DNA of 56,626 bases, from positions 1-56,626 of the forward strand of contig JAJPIX010000035.1 of assembly GCA_021324545.1 (NCBI GenBank), read 5' to 3'. Both the position numbers and the translations under genes were made by a program. Of the stretch, positions 16,928-24,916 are shown piece by piece. The notes beneath the pieces are model-generated. The model searched no databases, had not been told where the DNA came from, and saw nothing but the letters and a program-made list of their open reading frames with translations. This DNA is from Alphaproteobacteria bacterium (lineage in GTDB: Bacteria > Pseudomonadota > Alphaproteobacteria > Micropepsales > Micropepsaceae). Every line of letters starts with the position of its first letter. Positions within the stretch are counted from its first letter, which is position 1.

Positions 16928-18379
16928 TCAGAATGCGACCTGGGTGCGGAGCGACACGGCGTCGAGACGCGCATCAAGGCTTGCGCCAAGCGGATCGAGC
17001 CGGTTCACGTCCGTGTGCTGATAATCGAGCATGAAGCGGATGGCGGTGTTGGGATACCAGCTGATGCCGGCGGTCCAGATTTTCTGCTCGCCGCCGCGCA
17101 CGCCGCCAGCCGGTGTGGGCAGAAGCGCAATTCCCGCGTTGTCATTGAGATCAAGAACGCTGTAGCGCGCTGCGATCTCCCGGGCGCCCGTGCCCGCATG
17201 ACCGAGCGTAAAGGGATCGGCGGGCTTCGGCGCGGAGAACGCGCCGCGCGCGGGGTTCCACGTGCGCGCTTCGCCGGTCAGAACCCAGCTTGCCTGCGCG
17301 TACCAACCGGCGAACGAGGCATCGCCAAGCCCGCCCGTCCTGTTGACGTGAATGTTGTAATAGCCGCCCTGGCCGTAGAGGCTGCGCCAGTTGCCGGCTG
17401 CCTCCGCGCCCCAGTGCCAGACCTTGTCCGCCAGCAGCGTTCCCGTGCTCACGAGCCTGATGCTGTTATCGTCCACATTCAGTTCCGGCCGTTCGCTGAG
17501 CGAAATTCCGTTGGGCGAATTGGGTCCGGGCGCGATGTCGGGAAGCCTGAAGACGTAGCTTGCGTCGGCGCCGAGCGCCAGATTGGCGTCCCCCGTGTTC
17601 ACCAGCCTGTAGGCTGCGCGGCCCACCAGCGCCTGCTGTTCGTCGAATTGCGCGCCGGTTCCCACAACGCTTCCCGTGTAGGACAGCGCCGCGAAGTAGT
17701 TGTCGCCATAGGCAAAGACGGTTGCCGCGTCGCGGCCGTCGCCGCCGGCAATGCTGCGCGCCACATCGGTCGGCTGCGCGCGCTCGAGGAACAGGAAGTC
17801 GGTCGGCGATGTGGTGTCCTCGAAACTCTCCGGGGGCGCGTAGGCGCCGATGCGGAAATGGAACGGTGCAAGCCCGTTGTACTGGATATAGGCGCTGGTG
17901 ATGCTTGTGCCTTCGACGCCGGAGCCGCCGAAATCGTAGATGAATTCATACGCCCAATCGGTGAACAACGTGCCGTCGGCGCCGAAGCGGGCCCGGCGAA
18001 AATTGCTGCCGCTGGAAAAATCGATTCCGGCCGGCATTTCGCCCTGCGCGTAATAGGCGGTGTCATATTGCACCATCAGGCGCGGCTCGAAACTGAATGC
18101 GCCGTCGGCGGTCTTGAGCACCGGCTTGCCGCCATTGAGCGACAGCCGGACATCGCCTGCTCCCTGCGATTGCTGGCGAAGATCGGCATATTGCTGGCTC
18201 TGGCTGCGCTTCAGATCCTGAACCTCGGCCTGAAGCGATGAAATTTCGCTTTCGAGACTCTGCAGCCGCGCATTGGCATCGGCCGGCGATGATGCGCCGG
18301 CAGCCGCGCCGGACACGGAAACGAAAACGGCAACGCCCGCCATCAGGCCGGCGCGCAGGATTTTCATGGTGAAGCTCAT
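16928..18379 (-). CDS. OprO/OprP-type outer-membrane porin of the sulfate operon
   Basis: 483 residues: signal peptide (cleavage near 'SGAAA'), a coiled-coil stretch rich in Leu/Gln/Glu at residues 40-75 ('LQSLESEISSLQAEVQDLK'), then a beta-barrel ending in Phe. The barrel shows the OprO/OprP pattern 'FSFEPRLMVQYDTAYY', 'FRRARFGADGTLFTDWAYEFIYDF', 'APFHFRIGAYAPPESFEDTTSPTDFLFLERA'. OprP itself is a phosphate-selective trimeric porin; here the gene leads the sulfate transporter operon, so an anion (sulfate) role is inferred from position. A second in-frame ATG lies at 18367. The operator-like palindrome is about 90 bp upstream. Confidence 0.88.
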   Translation of the reverse strand: MSFTMKILRAGLMAGVAVFVSVSGAAAGASSPADANARLQSLESEISSLQAEVQDLKRSQSQQYADLRQQSQGAGDVRLSLNGGKPVLKTADGAFSFEPRLMVQYDTAYYAQGEMPAGIDFSSGSNFRRARFGADGTLFTDWAYEFIYDFGGSGVEGTSITSAYIQYNGLAPFHFRIGAYAPPESFEDTTSPTDFLFLERAQPTDVARSIAGGDGRDAATVFAYGDNYFAALSYTGSVVGTGAQFDEQQALVGRAAYRLVNTGDANLALGADASYVFRLPDIAPGPNSPNGISLSERPELNVDDNSIRLVSTGTLLADKVWHWGAEAAGNWRSLYGQGGYYNIHVNRTGGLGDASFAGWYAQASWVLTGEARTWNPARGAFSAPKPADPFTLGHAGTGAREIAARYSVLDLNDNAGIALLPTPAGGVRGGEQKIWTAGISWYPNTAIRFMLDYQHTDVNRLDPLGASLDARLDAVSLRTQVAF

Positions 18380-18521: not shown

Positions 18522-18947
18522 TCAGCGCTTGCGGGGATTGGCGGCGGCCGCGGCGATCGTGCTGGATTCCAGCACGGCAGCGGTTGCATCCCTGGCTTTC
18601 ACCAGCGTCTTGTGAAGGGCGCAGGTTTTTTCATCGACACAGCCGTCGCAGCGGTGATGCGCGGTGACGCTCGCGCATGGGGCCAGCGCCAGCGGCCCGT
18701 CGCTGATTCGGATGACGTCGGCAAAAGTGATCTGATCGGCGGGCCGGCCCAGCAGATAGCCGCCCTGCCGGCCGCGCAGGCTTTTCACGATCCCGCGCTT
18801 TTTCAGTTCCAGCAGGATCTGTTCCAGAAACTTCTTCGGCACATCGGCCTTTTTTGCGATGTCCGCCGTGAGCATGGGCTCGGTGTCGCCATGCCGCGCA
18901 AGCGCGATCAGGGCATGCAGCGCGTAACGGGCCTTTTGCGAGAGCAT
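18522..18947 (-). CDS. Rrf2-family transcriptional regulator
   Basis: 141 residues. The N-terminal winged helix starts 'MLSQKARYALHALIALA' and contains the Rrf2 hallmark 'KKFLEQILLELKKRGIVKSLRGRQGGYLL'. The C-terminal half has four cysteines, C91, C100, C103 and C109, close to the spacing used by IscR and relatives to hold a Fe-S cluster, so the protein may sense Fe-S status, redox state or a sulfur metabolite. CymR, an Rrf2 member of Gram-positives, controls cysteine metabolism, which makes control of the downstream sulfate operon plausible. Role inferred from position. Confidence 0.88.
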   Translation of the reverse strand: MLSQKARYALHALIALARHGDTEPMLTADIAKKADVPKKFLEQILLELKKRGIVKSLRGRQGGYLLGRPADQITFADVIRISDGPLALAPCASVTAHHRCDGCVDEKTCALHKTLVKARDATAAVLESSTIAAAAANPRKR

Positions 18948-21761: not shown

Positions 21762-22646
21762 ATGCGCCGGCCGCAAGCCAGGAATTTCCGCACGACACAG
21801 GACATCCGGCGCTTTCCGCACGGGCGGATCGAAACCGTTTCGCACGCCGAAACCAGCATCGGTCACTTCGTGATTGAGCCCGGCTGGCGCTGGTCGCGCG
21901 ACGTGGCGCCGATCGCGGGCACGCGCACCTGCCAGATGCATCACACCGGCGTGGTGCTGAAAGGCAGGCTGCATCTGCAAACCGACGACGGCGAAGCGTT
22001 CGAATTCGGCGTGGGCGATGTCTATGACATTCCGCCCGGGCACGATGCCTGGGTGGTGGGCGACGAAGCGTTCGAGGCCATCGAGTTCGCGAGCGCGCGC
22101 ATTTTCGCCATGCCAGCCGATGGCGACCGCGTGCTGGCGGCGGTGCTTGTCACCGACATCGTGGATTCCACCGCGCATCTGAAGCGGCTGGGCGATGCGG
22201 CCTGGCGCGAGATTCTGCTGGAGCACAATCATCTGGTGCGCGCGGCGCTGAACCGGTTCCGCGGGCGGGAAATCCAGACCACCGGCGACGGATTTCTGGC
22301 GATGTTCGACGGCCCGGCACGCGCGGTGCGCTGCGCGCGCGCGATCGGACCGGCGGTGGCGCATCTGGGCATCGCCATTCGCGCGGGCGTTCACACTGGC
22401 GAAGTGGAAGTGCTCGCCGACAATGTGAGGGGCCTTGCCGTGCACGAGGCCGCGCGCGTGGCGGCCGTTGCCAAGGCGGGCGAAGTGCTGGTGTCCACCA
22501 CCACGAAAAGCCTGCTGGCGGGATGCGACCTTACGTTTGAGTCGGCCGGGCAATTCGAGCTGAAAGGCCTTGACGGACCGCGGGAACTGTTCCGGGTGCC
22601 ATCAGGGCAACAGGCTGCACCCGCCGGGGCTACCCCCCAGATATAG
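21762..22646 (+). CDS. Cupin domain fused to class III adenylate/guanylate cyclase
   Basis: 294 residues. Residues about 30-125 form a cupin ('GTRTCQMHHTGVVLKGRLHLQTDDGE', 'FGVGDVYDIPPGHDAWVVGDE'), a small barrel that often binds a metal or small ligand. Residues 127-290 are a class III cyclase domain: 'LVTDIVDSTAHLKRLGD' with the metal Asp D132, 'QTTGDGFLAMFD' with the second Asp, and the closing 'VHEAARVAAVAKAGEVLVSTTTKSLL'. It is soluble, with no signal peptide or membrane helix. Most likely a sensor that makes cAMP when the cupin is occupied or empty; ligand unknown. A GGGGA ribosome site precedes the ATG. No obvious operon partner. Confidence 0.86.
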   Translation: MRRPQARNFRTTQDIRRFPHGRIETVSHAETSIGHFVIEPGWRWSRDVAPIAGTRTCQMHHTGVVLKGRLHLQTDDGEAFEFGVGDVYDIPPGHDAWVVGDEAFEAIEFASARIFAMPADGDRVLAAVLVTDIVDSTAHLKRLGDAAWREILLEHNHLVRAALNRFRGREIQTTGDGFLAMFDGPARAVRCARAIGPAVAHLGIAIRAGVHTGEVEVLADNVRGLAVHEAARVAAVAKAGEVLVSTTTKSLLAGCDLTFESAGQFELKGLDGPRELFRVPSGQQAAPAGATPQI

Positions 22647-22984: not shown

Positions 22985-23055
22985 TTGCAGCATCGCACTG
23001 CAAGGGCCGTACGCGTTGATTGCCCTCAACCATGATCGTAGGTGTTTGTACCTAC
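22985..23055. promoter_or_regulatory. Two inverted repeats between the small ORF and the Cyc2-like gene
   Basis: TTGCAG and CTGCAA, 7 bp apart, at 22985-23003; GTAGGT and ACCTAC, 6 bp apart, at 23038-23055. Both are perfect in their arms and lie in the shared control region of two divergent genes. They may be operators; no clear -10/-35 pair was found. Confidence 0.35.
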
Positions 23056-23176: not shown

Positions 23177-24511
23177 ATGAATCGAATCAGGCAGGCGGGA
23201 TTTGTTTCTGTCGCGGCGGTTGCGCTGCTGGCGACCGGCGAGGCCCAGGCTGTGCCCGCTTTTGCCGTGCAGACGGGACTTCAATGTGCGGCCTGCCATG
23301 TCGGCGGTTTCGGCCCGCAGCTGACGCCCCTGGGCAGGCAGTTCAAGATCGGCGGCTATACCATGCGAGCCACGCCGGGGTTCACCCCGCCGGTGTCCGC
23401 CATGGTGATGGCCTCCTATGTGAACACGGCCAAAGGCCAGAACCCGCCGCCGGCCCCGCATTACGCGCCCAACGACAATGTCACGCTGGATCAGGCGAGT
23501 CTCTTCATCGCCGGCGGCTATGGCGACCACTTCGGAAGCTTTGCGCAATTCACCTATGACGGAATCGGCCGCGCCTTTGCGTGGGACAATCTCGATCTGC
23601 GTGCGGTCGATCGCGAAACCGTCGCCGGACAGGATGTCGTGCTCGGCCTTGTGCTGAACAACAACCCCGGCGTGGAGGACGGCTGGAATACGCTCGCCGC
23701 CTGGGGCTTTCCGTATTCCGGCTCGGATCTCGTTCCGGCGCCGTCGGCGGGCCCCATGATCGCGGGCGGGCTTGGCCAGACCGTGCTGGGGCTGAACGCC
23801 TATGCATGGTGGAATTCGTCGATCTATACGGAAGCGGGCTTCTACTGGACGCCCGGCCACAATTTCCTGAGCGCGCTGGGCGCGGACTCATCCGACCCCG
23901 GCCCGCTTGCGAGCGCCGCCCCCTATCTGAGACTTGCCTATCAGAAGGATTACGGCGACCAGAATTTCGAGATCGGCGCCTTCGGATTCTTCCCCGATCT
24001 CTATCCCGGCAACGATCATTCGACGGGCAAGACCGATCACTACCGCGATCTCGGCCTGGACGCGACGTACCAATATGTGGGCACCGGCGACAACATCTAC
24101 CAGGTGAACGCGATCTATACGAACGAGCATCAGGCGCTTGATGCCTCTTCGGCGCTGGGCGCATCGGCCAGAAGCGACACGCTGAATGACCTGCGCTTCG
24201 ACGGATCGTACTACTGGCACAACGAGATCGGCGGTACGATCCAGTATTTCACGACCTGGGGTTCGGCCGATCCGCTGCTCTATGCCGACAATTCCACCCT
24301 GAAACCGGACAGCTCGGGCTTTGTGTTCCAGGTGGACGGCACGCCTTTCGGCAGCGAACCGTCGAGCCTGGGAACAAGGTTCAACATCCGCGTGGGCGTT
24401 CAGTACATCGCCTACACGAAGTTCAACGGCGCGTCCTCCAATTACGACGGCCTGGGCCGCAACGCATCCGACAACAATGCACTGCGCCTGTTCATCTGGG
24501 GCGCATTCTGA
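23177..24511 (+). CDS. Cyc2-like fused monoheme cytochrome-porin
   Basis: 444 residues from the ATG at 23177. The signal peptide ends at 'GEAQA'. The mature start 'VPAFAVQTGLQCAACH' carries one c-type haem motif (C37, C40, H41), followed by 'GPQLTPLGRQFKIGGYT'. That order (PxFAxQTG, CxxCH, PQLTPxGRxFKxxGY) is the signature of Cyc2, the outer-membrane cytochrome-porin of Fe(II) oxidisers. From residue 70 on the chain reads as a beta-barrel ending in 'LRLFIWGAF'. Such proteins are thought to carry electrons through the outer membrane. A HiPIP gene follows after 25 bp. Cyc2-like proteins are also found in bacteria not known to oxidise iron, so the electron donor is open. Confidence 0.78.
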   Translation: MNRIRQAGFVSVAAVALLATGEAQAVPAFAVQTGLQCAACHVGGFGPQLTPLGRQFKIGGYTMRATPGFTPPVSAMVMASYVNTAKGQNPPPAPHYAPNDNVTLDQASLFIAGGYGDHFGSFAQFTYDGIGRAFAWDNLDLRAVDRETVAGQDVVLGLVLNNNPGVEDGWNTLAAWGFPYSGSDLVPAPSAGPMIAGGLGQTVLGLNAYAWWNSSIYTEAGFYWTPGHNFLSALGADSSDPGPLASAAPYLRLAYQKDYGDQNFEIGAFGFFPDLYPGNDHSTGKTDHYRDLGLDATYQYVGTGDNIYQVNAIYTNEHQALDASSALGASARSDTLNDLRFDGSYYWHNEIGGTIQYFTTWGSADPLLYADNSTLKPDSSGFVFQVDGTPFGSEPSSLGTRFNIRVGVQYIAYTKFNGASSNYDGLGRNASDNNALRLFIWGAF

Positions 24512-24536
24512 ACAGCAACATCACAGGAGTCCGGAC

Positions 24537-24824
24537 ATGAGCAACCGCATCGAGAAATCGCCCGAAACACACACGGTTTTTTGCCTGTCGCGCCGCCGGA
24601 TGCTCGAAGGCGCGGCATTGGGCGGCGCCATCGTGCTGATGGCGGCAAGCACTCAGCCGGCCAGCGCCAAGATGACGGAAGCCGCAGCCGGATATCAGGG
24701 CGAGCCCAAGGGCGATTCAAGCTGCGGCAACTGCACGCTCTTCCGCCAGCCTTCCGGCTGCCTGATCGTGGACGGAAACATCAGCCAGAACGGCTGGTGC
24801 CGGTTCTATTCGAAGAAGAGCTAA
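24537..24824 (+). CDS. High-potential iron-sulfur protein (HiPIP), Tat-exported
   Basis: 95 residues. Twin-arginine leader 'LSRRRMLEGAALGGAIVL' (R19, R20) with cleavage near 'QPASA', so it folds with its cluster in the cytoplasm and is exported. The mature part has four cysteines C63-x2-C66-x8-C75-x12-C88 with 'NGWC', the HiPIP pattern for one [4Fe-4S] cluster. HiPIPs carry single electrons in the periplasm at high potential. A CAGGAG box precedes the ATG. Directly downstream of the Cyc2-like gene, it is the natural electron acceptor, as HiPIPs are in iron oxidation systems such as pioABC. Confidence 0.92.
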   Translation: MSNRIEKSPETHTVFCLSRRRMLEGAALGGAIVLMAASTQPASAKMTEAAAGYQGEPKGDSSCGNCTLFRQPSGCLIVDGNISQNGWCRFYSKKS

Positions 24825-24841: not shown

Positions 24842-24916
24842 TGGCGCTCCCACGGGGAATCGAACCCCGGTTTCAGCCTTGAGAGGGCCGCGTCCTGACC
24901 GCTAGACGATGGGAGC
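24842..24916 (-). tRNA. tRNA-Glu (CTC)
   Basis: 75 nt with a full cloverleaf: acceptor stem GCTCCCA/TGGGAGC, anticodon stem CGGCC/GGCTG (one G-T pair) with loop CTCTCAA, so anticodon CTC reads GAG. T loop TTCGATT follows a GGGG stem. The 3' CCA is encoded. It lies 17 bp past the HiPIP stop, on the other strand. Confidence 0.95.

Follow-up and report, generated by a model that had tools for sequence, protein, structure and literature searches.

Can a single one-haem outer-membrane protein and one small carrier provide an entry for electrons into a bacterial cell, and is the outer-membrane protein a Cyc2? These questions are raised by two adjoining genes of an alphaproteobacterium of the family Micropepsaceae, which are located on a stretch of 56,626 nucleotides (contig JAJPIX010000035.1), here called the window. 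A sequence-only reading of this stretch had described a Cyc2-like cytochrome-porin together with a Tat-exported HiPIP and had suggested that the two form a minimal path for electrons from an external donor to the periplasm.

Architecture of the cytochrome-porin

The cytochrome-porin gene (positions 23177 to 24511, plus strand) begins with an ATG at 23177, reaches its stop at 24511, and encodes 444 amino acids, the last of which are WGAF. The N-terminal order is a signal-like leader, AVPAFAVQTG, the predicted haem c attachment site CAACH (residues 37 to 41; positions 23285 to 23299, plus strand), and GPQLTPLGRQFKIGGY, and the final residue of the protein is Phe. Residues AVPAFAVQTGLQCAACHVGGFGPQLTPLGRQFKIGGYTM correspond to the motif order given previously, and the layout claimed for the protein, i.e., the PxFA motif order, a single CxxCH, and the Phe end, was borne out in full by the ORF reading. 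Several positions do not vary in any of the 59 distinct relatives (the window protein counted): both Cys and the His in CxxCH, Pro and Leu in PxL, and FK in GRxFK. Profile searches against Pfam and NCBIfam found nothing similar to the cytochrome-porin at E values of up to 1. The comparison with solved structures yielded no relative; three weak hits and azurin-type chance matches (best E value of 0.016) were discarded.

The AlphaFold model, which is based on a 17-row alignment, has 16 strands and a mean pLDDT of 75. Its fold matches are 16-strand general porins of the OmpC/OmpF type (Z of about 22), and OprP/OprO is also found among them; at the level of a predicted structure, this agrees with the 16-strand barrel expected from the sequence-only reading. 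The cytochrome domain is the least certain part of the model (residues 37 to 49 with a pLDDT under 50), which makes a haem plug inside the barrel a tentative idea.

Sixteen of the related loci stem from named genome contigs, and nine plasmid records contain a homologue of the cytochrome-porin, including those of Acidiphilium, Caballeronia, Methylocystis, and Acidithiobacillus ferrooxidans. Very similar cassettes of a cytochrome-porin and a cytochrome c gene (L038, L039, and L042) are located on plasmids of Acidiphilium and A. ferrooxidans close to transposase genes, with two ORFs annotated for the copy in L042.

Relationship to Cyc2

According to Keffer et al. (2021), Cyc2 is recognized by AXPXFAR[QK][TY], CxxCH, PXL, and a fused 16-strand barrel, and sequences without PXFAR[QK][TY] were removed from the published tree of 1,593 Cyc2 sequences (PMC8406198). 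Compared with this description, which also asks for at least 365 amino acids, the 444-aa protein has its single CxxCH near the mature N terminus and, in the predicted model, the fused 16-strand outer-membrane barrel (PMC8406198). The stretch before CxxCH reads AVPAFAVQT, with Val in place of Arg, and the motif screen of the published tree would therefore have removed the window protein. It shares the absence of this Arg with 36 other rows (37 of 59), and 11 of the 59 rows pass the published screen. PQL follows after five residues (VGGFG) beyond CxxCH, while the published PXL criterion specifies four amino acids (PMC8406198). The distance between CH and PxL is five residues in 44 and three in 15 of the 59 rows; among anchor proteins with the exact Cyc2 consensus, it is four in all 10 QT-form rows and three in all four KY-form rows, so that the PxL spacing cannot be regarded as strict.

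These anchors are proteins of family f188, which belongs to another class, has genomes of 1.2 to 3.1 Mb, and accounts for 65 of the 89 matching genomes. They occur in a QT form (AIPAFARQT or close; L126 to L135 and L137) and a KY form (AIPVFARKY or close; L165 to L168). Of six further stretches examined in other genomes, L169 contained no ORF that passed the filter. The presence of both forms in one lineage fits a report on two Cyc2 types in Zetaproteobacteria (PMC7029218), and we infer that f188 belongs to the latter. An hhalign comparison of the window's family with the QT-form anchors gave a probability of 99.3% with an E value of 1.4e-20 over 263 columns. In the trees, of which the 72-row tree is the quick-search version, the supergroup of the window lies apart from both anchor forms on long branches.

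The proposed Cyc2 identity is thus supported by the architecture and by distant homology to exact-consensus proteins but contradicted by the published motif. Since the motif Arg is replaced by Val and long branches lie between the protein and the anchors, we do not file it as Cyc2 despite the homology; judged by its sequence, we regard it as a Cyc2-like sister branch and not Cyc2 proper. This distinction matters, as Cyc2 serves as a marker gene of iron oxidation: the Arg-less branch shares the plan and the kinds of carriers, may or may not oxidize iron, and is missed by a motif-based screen because the recognition residue is absent.

The HiPIP gene and its association with the cytochrome-porin

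A PioC-like HiPIP of 95 aa (positions 24537 to 24824, plus strand) is encoded on the same strand, 25 bp after the cytochrome-porin stop and behind a putative AGGAG ribosome-binding site at 24525 to 24529. The hallmark of HiPIPs is four Cys with a C-x2-C plus a terminal G-[WY]-C-x2-aromatic, and the window protein conforms to this pattern. Its four predicted cluster Cys (residues 63, 66, 75, and 88; positions 24723 to 24800, plus strand) have the spacing C-x2-C-x8-C-x12-C, are invariant in all seven aligned HiPIPs, and lie in a region that includes GWCRFY. The nearest solved relative is PioC (E value of 8.6e-14), and the Pfam model HIPIP (PF01355) is matched with 21.3 bits (E value of 3.3e-4), just below the gathering cutoff of 22. 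Both the ORF reading and the similarity to PioC confirm the HiPIP that had been assigned here from its Cys spacing. Export by the Tat system is suggested by a leader with SRRRML, the SRR of which is invariant in the seven aligned HiPIPs, all picked for adjoining a cytochrome-porin; the scores of the Tat models are below their cutoff.

The association of the two genes was assessed in 96 genomes of the order, 37 of which contain cytochrome-porin matches (including the fragments in G239 and G387) and 24 HiPIP matches. That a HiPIP gene merely follows an unrelated porin by chance is extremely improbable: 24 of the 38 HiPIP matches have no cytochrome-porin match within 2 kb, but the other 14 do, versus 0.05 expected, with the HiPIP gene downstream, upstream, or divergent relative to the cytochrome-porin gene and with pairs in other families too. 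The cytochrome-porin is present in 20 of the 24 genomes with a HiPIP versus 17 of the 72 others (Fisher P value of 2.9e-7, which overstates independence because these genomes are related to each other). A strict count without weak matches, from which the two cytochrome-porin fragments and four weak HiPIP genomes are excluded, gives 18 of 20 versus 17 of 76. The sequence-only reading had made its proposal dependent on co-conservation of both genes, which these numbers document.

The kind of carrier varies. Next to 59 distinct cytochrome-porins, the neighboring carrier is a HiPIP in 14 cases (four of them also with a dihaem c4), a monohaem cytochrome c in 30, and a dihaem c4 only in six, while none was found in nine, some of which end near a contig end; the carrier has therefore been swapped repeatedly. 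This set was gathered by similarity and is not a random sample. Duplicates of more than 98% identity, truncated duplicates (L080, L082, and L085), L001 (the same gene as L018), and L031, L034, L066, and others without the motif or under about 330 residues had been dropped beforehand. Partner labels were set by hand for L007 (cytochrome 0.8 kb upstream, GPNI form), L048 and L052 (GPNLFD form), L037 (dihaem c 1.8 kb upstream, past the 1.5-kb rule), and L051 (shadow-frame c4 label removed). On the tree of the 59 loci, the HiPIP state changes at least nine times, and forcing six HiPIP-paired rows from the window's branch into one group yields a tree that is rejected with a p-AU of 0.0004, a value to be taken as a guide because the six rows were picked after the tree had been seen. 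A HiPIP as a fixed operon partner was rejected on these grounds: of the two-gene path suggested earlier, the co-conserved pair remains, and the HiPIP becomes one of several interchangeable partners. Dihaem c4 neighbors were seen only beside Arg-bearing forms; the Arg-less forms adjoin a HiPIP or a monohaem c, as do some of the Arg forms. Pairs of tandem HiPIP genes upstream of a cytochrome-porin with an FPEL form were observed in L027 and L111.

Genes for soluble cytochromes c adjoin cyc2 in other bacteria, i.e., for a dihaem cytochrome c in A. ferrooxidans and Ferrovum (PMC10879576) and for a mono- or dihaem cytochrome c in Acetobacteraceae (PMC10715153). No report of a cyc2-HiPIP gene neighborhood was met in the paper listings and passages searched, which included few subscription papers, and published accounts call the part played by HiPIPs next to Cyc2 systems unknown or unresolved (PMC4725956, PMC10715153). 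Sister loci with different carriers, HiPIP or cytochrome c, are a natural means of directly testing the route by which electrons exit an outer-membrane port with one haem, and whether the motif Arg matters for this exit.

Genomic site

The pair lies at the 3' side of a tRNA-Glu(CTC) gene (positions 24842 to 24916, minus strand), which lies 17 bp after the HiPIP gene and serves here as a landmark outside the mechanism. The next gene beyond the tRNA is Prok-JAB; among 22 genus mates that have a match to it, 21 carry tRNA-Glu(CTC) nearby (L139 to L159). At none of these 21 tRNA loci was a motif of the cytochrome-porin or of a HiPIP seen in the 54 to 1,384 bp visible beyond the tRNA. ORFs of at least 60 residues beyond the tRNA in the 21 relatives have no mutual similarity at an E value of 1e-8, and two of them resemble window ORFs located elsewhere, with about 35% identity. 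The pair hence occupies a variable site beside the tRNA 3' end and, because this site differs among genus mates, is accessory. Its transfer or insertion at the tRNA is plausible, and the 3' side of the tRNA-Glu gene is possibly an insertion hot spot; the tRNA 3' end was not found a second time in the window.

In seven distinct relatives (L003, L006, L007, L048, L052, L053, and L055), the cytochrome-porin is located near an etfB-like gene, a label that rests on the reading of the N terminus. The genome of the window contains a monohaem cytochrome c gene beside such an etfB-like gene (L103/L171 on C59) and no cytochrome-porin in that 5-kb stretch. We refer to the etfB-like locus as the older site of the cytochrome-porin.

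Two further observations concern the surroundings of the pair. An OprP/OprO-type porin gene and a gene for an Rrf2-family regulator lie next to each other on the minus strand 4 to 6 kb away (positions 16931 to 18379 and 18525 to 18947), and a single ORF at positions 21762 to 22646 combines a weak cupin match with a following guanylate/adenylate cyclase domain.

Putative control by an FNR/FixK-type regulator

A candidate FNR/FixK-type box, TTGATTGCCCTCAA, is located at positions 23016 to 23029, 147 bp upstream of the cytochrome-porin start, and differs from TTGATnnnnATCAA by one mismatch. When one mismatch is allowed, TTGATnnnnATCAA is found within 360 bp upstream of the cytochrome-porin at 18 of 58 loci (truncated duplicates left out as before), versus 1.33 expected from its density elsewhere in those loci, and exact matches occur upstream in eight of 58 versus 0.55 expected; 19 control half-sites composed of the same letters gave a mean of 0.42 and a maximum of 2. 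Because the box was first noticed in the window, the test is post hoc there, but it is not so for the other loci. Forty of the 58 upstream regions lack the box, and several of the 18 loci with a box are near relatives (L010, L012, L013, and L014). The promoter scan detected no sigma-70-like site.

A Crp/Fnr-type gene lies near the cytochrome-porin of one relative (L005), and the genome of the window itself contains Crp-type genes, one of which adjoins a gene that appears FixJ-like by eye. In Rhodopseudomonas palustris, the pioABC operon, whose HiPIP is PioC, is reported to be controlled by FixK (PMC3050613). From the boxes we infer that a regulator of the FNR/FixK type probably turns on the module when oxygen is low.

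Genome content and physiological role

The genome of the window is 97% complete, and its single cytochrome-porin match is that of the window. A search for the COX1 family revealed one aa3 oxidase (CtaD) and two further matches that were read as NorB type, one by its NorB cytochrome-c-like domain and the other by eye. Subunit I of a cbb3 oxidase would match the COX1 model, and the cbb3 oxidase for which the sequence-only reading had advised looking was not seen in this search. Carbon fixation, likewise named there, found no support through its marker, the RuBisCO large subunit (PF00016), which was not detected in the genome; the same applies to the photosynthetic reaction center (PF00124). Cytochrome c matches number six. 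The absence of RuBisCO and of a reaction center makes growth on Fe(II) alone unlikely by these routes; it speaks against photoferrotrophy and lithoautotrophy of the Calvin type and in favor of a supplementary income of electrons. The pair thus probably serves a heterotroph as a side line of electron uptake at low oxygen.

Based on the computed architecture, homology, co-conservation, carrier-gene exchange, and box enrichment, our best explanation for the pair, with a probability of roughly 0.6, is a minimal outer-membrane electron-entry module. The cytochrome-porin would form a 16-strand barrel in the outer membrane, with its one-haem cytochrome domain at the periplasmic end, and would take single electrons from a small reduced donor entering the pore, either Fe(II) or a soluble reductant. 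These electrons would be handed to the exported HiPIP as a mobile periplasmic carrier and passed on, directly or through a cytochrome c, to the aa3 oxidase, in a module probably induced when oxygen is low. In close relatives, a port of this kind adjoins a monohaem cytochrome c instead, and in the Arg-bearing sister branches a dihaem c4 is also found beside it. The potentials of relatives, 208 mV for Cyc2PV-1 (PMC8406198) and 450 mV for PioC (PMC10879576), would make the transfer from haem to HiPIP downhill and the flow inward.

The reverse direction, in which the carrier and the cytochrome-porin pass electrons outward to Fe(III) or humics at low oxygen, would be in line with the FNR/FixK-type boxes as a sign of low-oxygen use, with Cyc2 isoforms described in Fe(III) reduction by acidithiobacilli (PMC10715153), and with the missing RuBisCO for Calvin-type lithoautotrophy. 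It is nevertheless unlikely, because a PioC-type HiPIP (450 mV) would not readily reduce a haem near 200 mV, and the pairing, as far as relatives' potentials apply, would favor inward flow. Still less probable is a protective or homeostatic oxidation of Fe(II) outside the cell without energy gain: the lack of RuBisCO and the accessory position of the pair at the tRNA could be explained in this way, but the gene for a periplasmic-type carrier beside 50 of the 59 members suits respiratory wiring better than detoxification alone.

Within the electron-entry reading, iron is an assumed donor, and no iron gene was found among the scanned neighbors of the pair. A soluble organic or sulfur reductant, with the loss of the motif Arg marking a change of substrate or partner, is a less probable alternative that draws on the 37 of 59 sequences without Arg, on the restriction of dihaem c4 partners to Arg forms, and on the published view that functions far from tested Cyc2 proteins are uncertain, those of Cluster 3 most (PMC8406198, section 13). 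On the other hand, the neighborhood suggests no alternative donor, and the carriers of Arg-less forms also occur beside some Arg forms. Returning to electron entry, we tentatively extend it to a large branch within the Cyc2 superfamily that lacks the Arg and is screened out by the published motif: its members may be ports with repeatedly exchanged carriers and FNR/FixK oxygen control that supply heterotrophs, such as the RuBisCO-less bacterium of the window, with a low-oxygen side income, possibly from non-iron donors.

Comparison with known systems

Iro, the HiPIP of acidithiobacilli (NCBIfam NF041615), is likewise a small HiPIP, and the window protein matches its model with 46.2 bits (E value of 4.3e-12); since the curated cutoff is 100 bits, it is not an Iro equivalog. 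With Cyc2 of A. ferrooxidans and Mariprofundus ferrooxydans PV-1 (FeGenie clusters 1 to 3), the cytochrome-porin shares one CxxCH near the mature N terminus, AxPxFA-QT-G before and PxL after it, and, according to the predicted model, a barrel of 16 strands fused to the haem part; a soluble cytochrome c neighbor is common to Cyc2 and to many relatives of the window protein. It differs from Cyc2 in the Val at the position of the motif Arg, in the five residues from CH to PxL, in the long branches, and in the HiPIP neighbor. PioABC of R. palustris TIE-1 has a decahaem cytochrome as a separate protein in a 26-strand barrel (PioAB), in contrast to one haem fused to a predicted 16-strand barrel, and the window's genome differs by the lack of a reaction center match. 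Common to both systems are an outer-membrane cytochrome/porin unit together with a small HiPIP, with PioC as the nearest solved HiPIP, and a FixK-type control (PMC3050613), to which the candidate box points on the side of the window.
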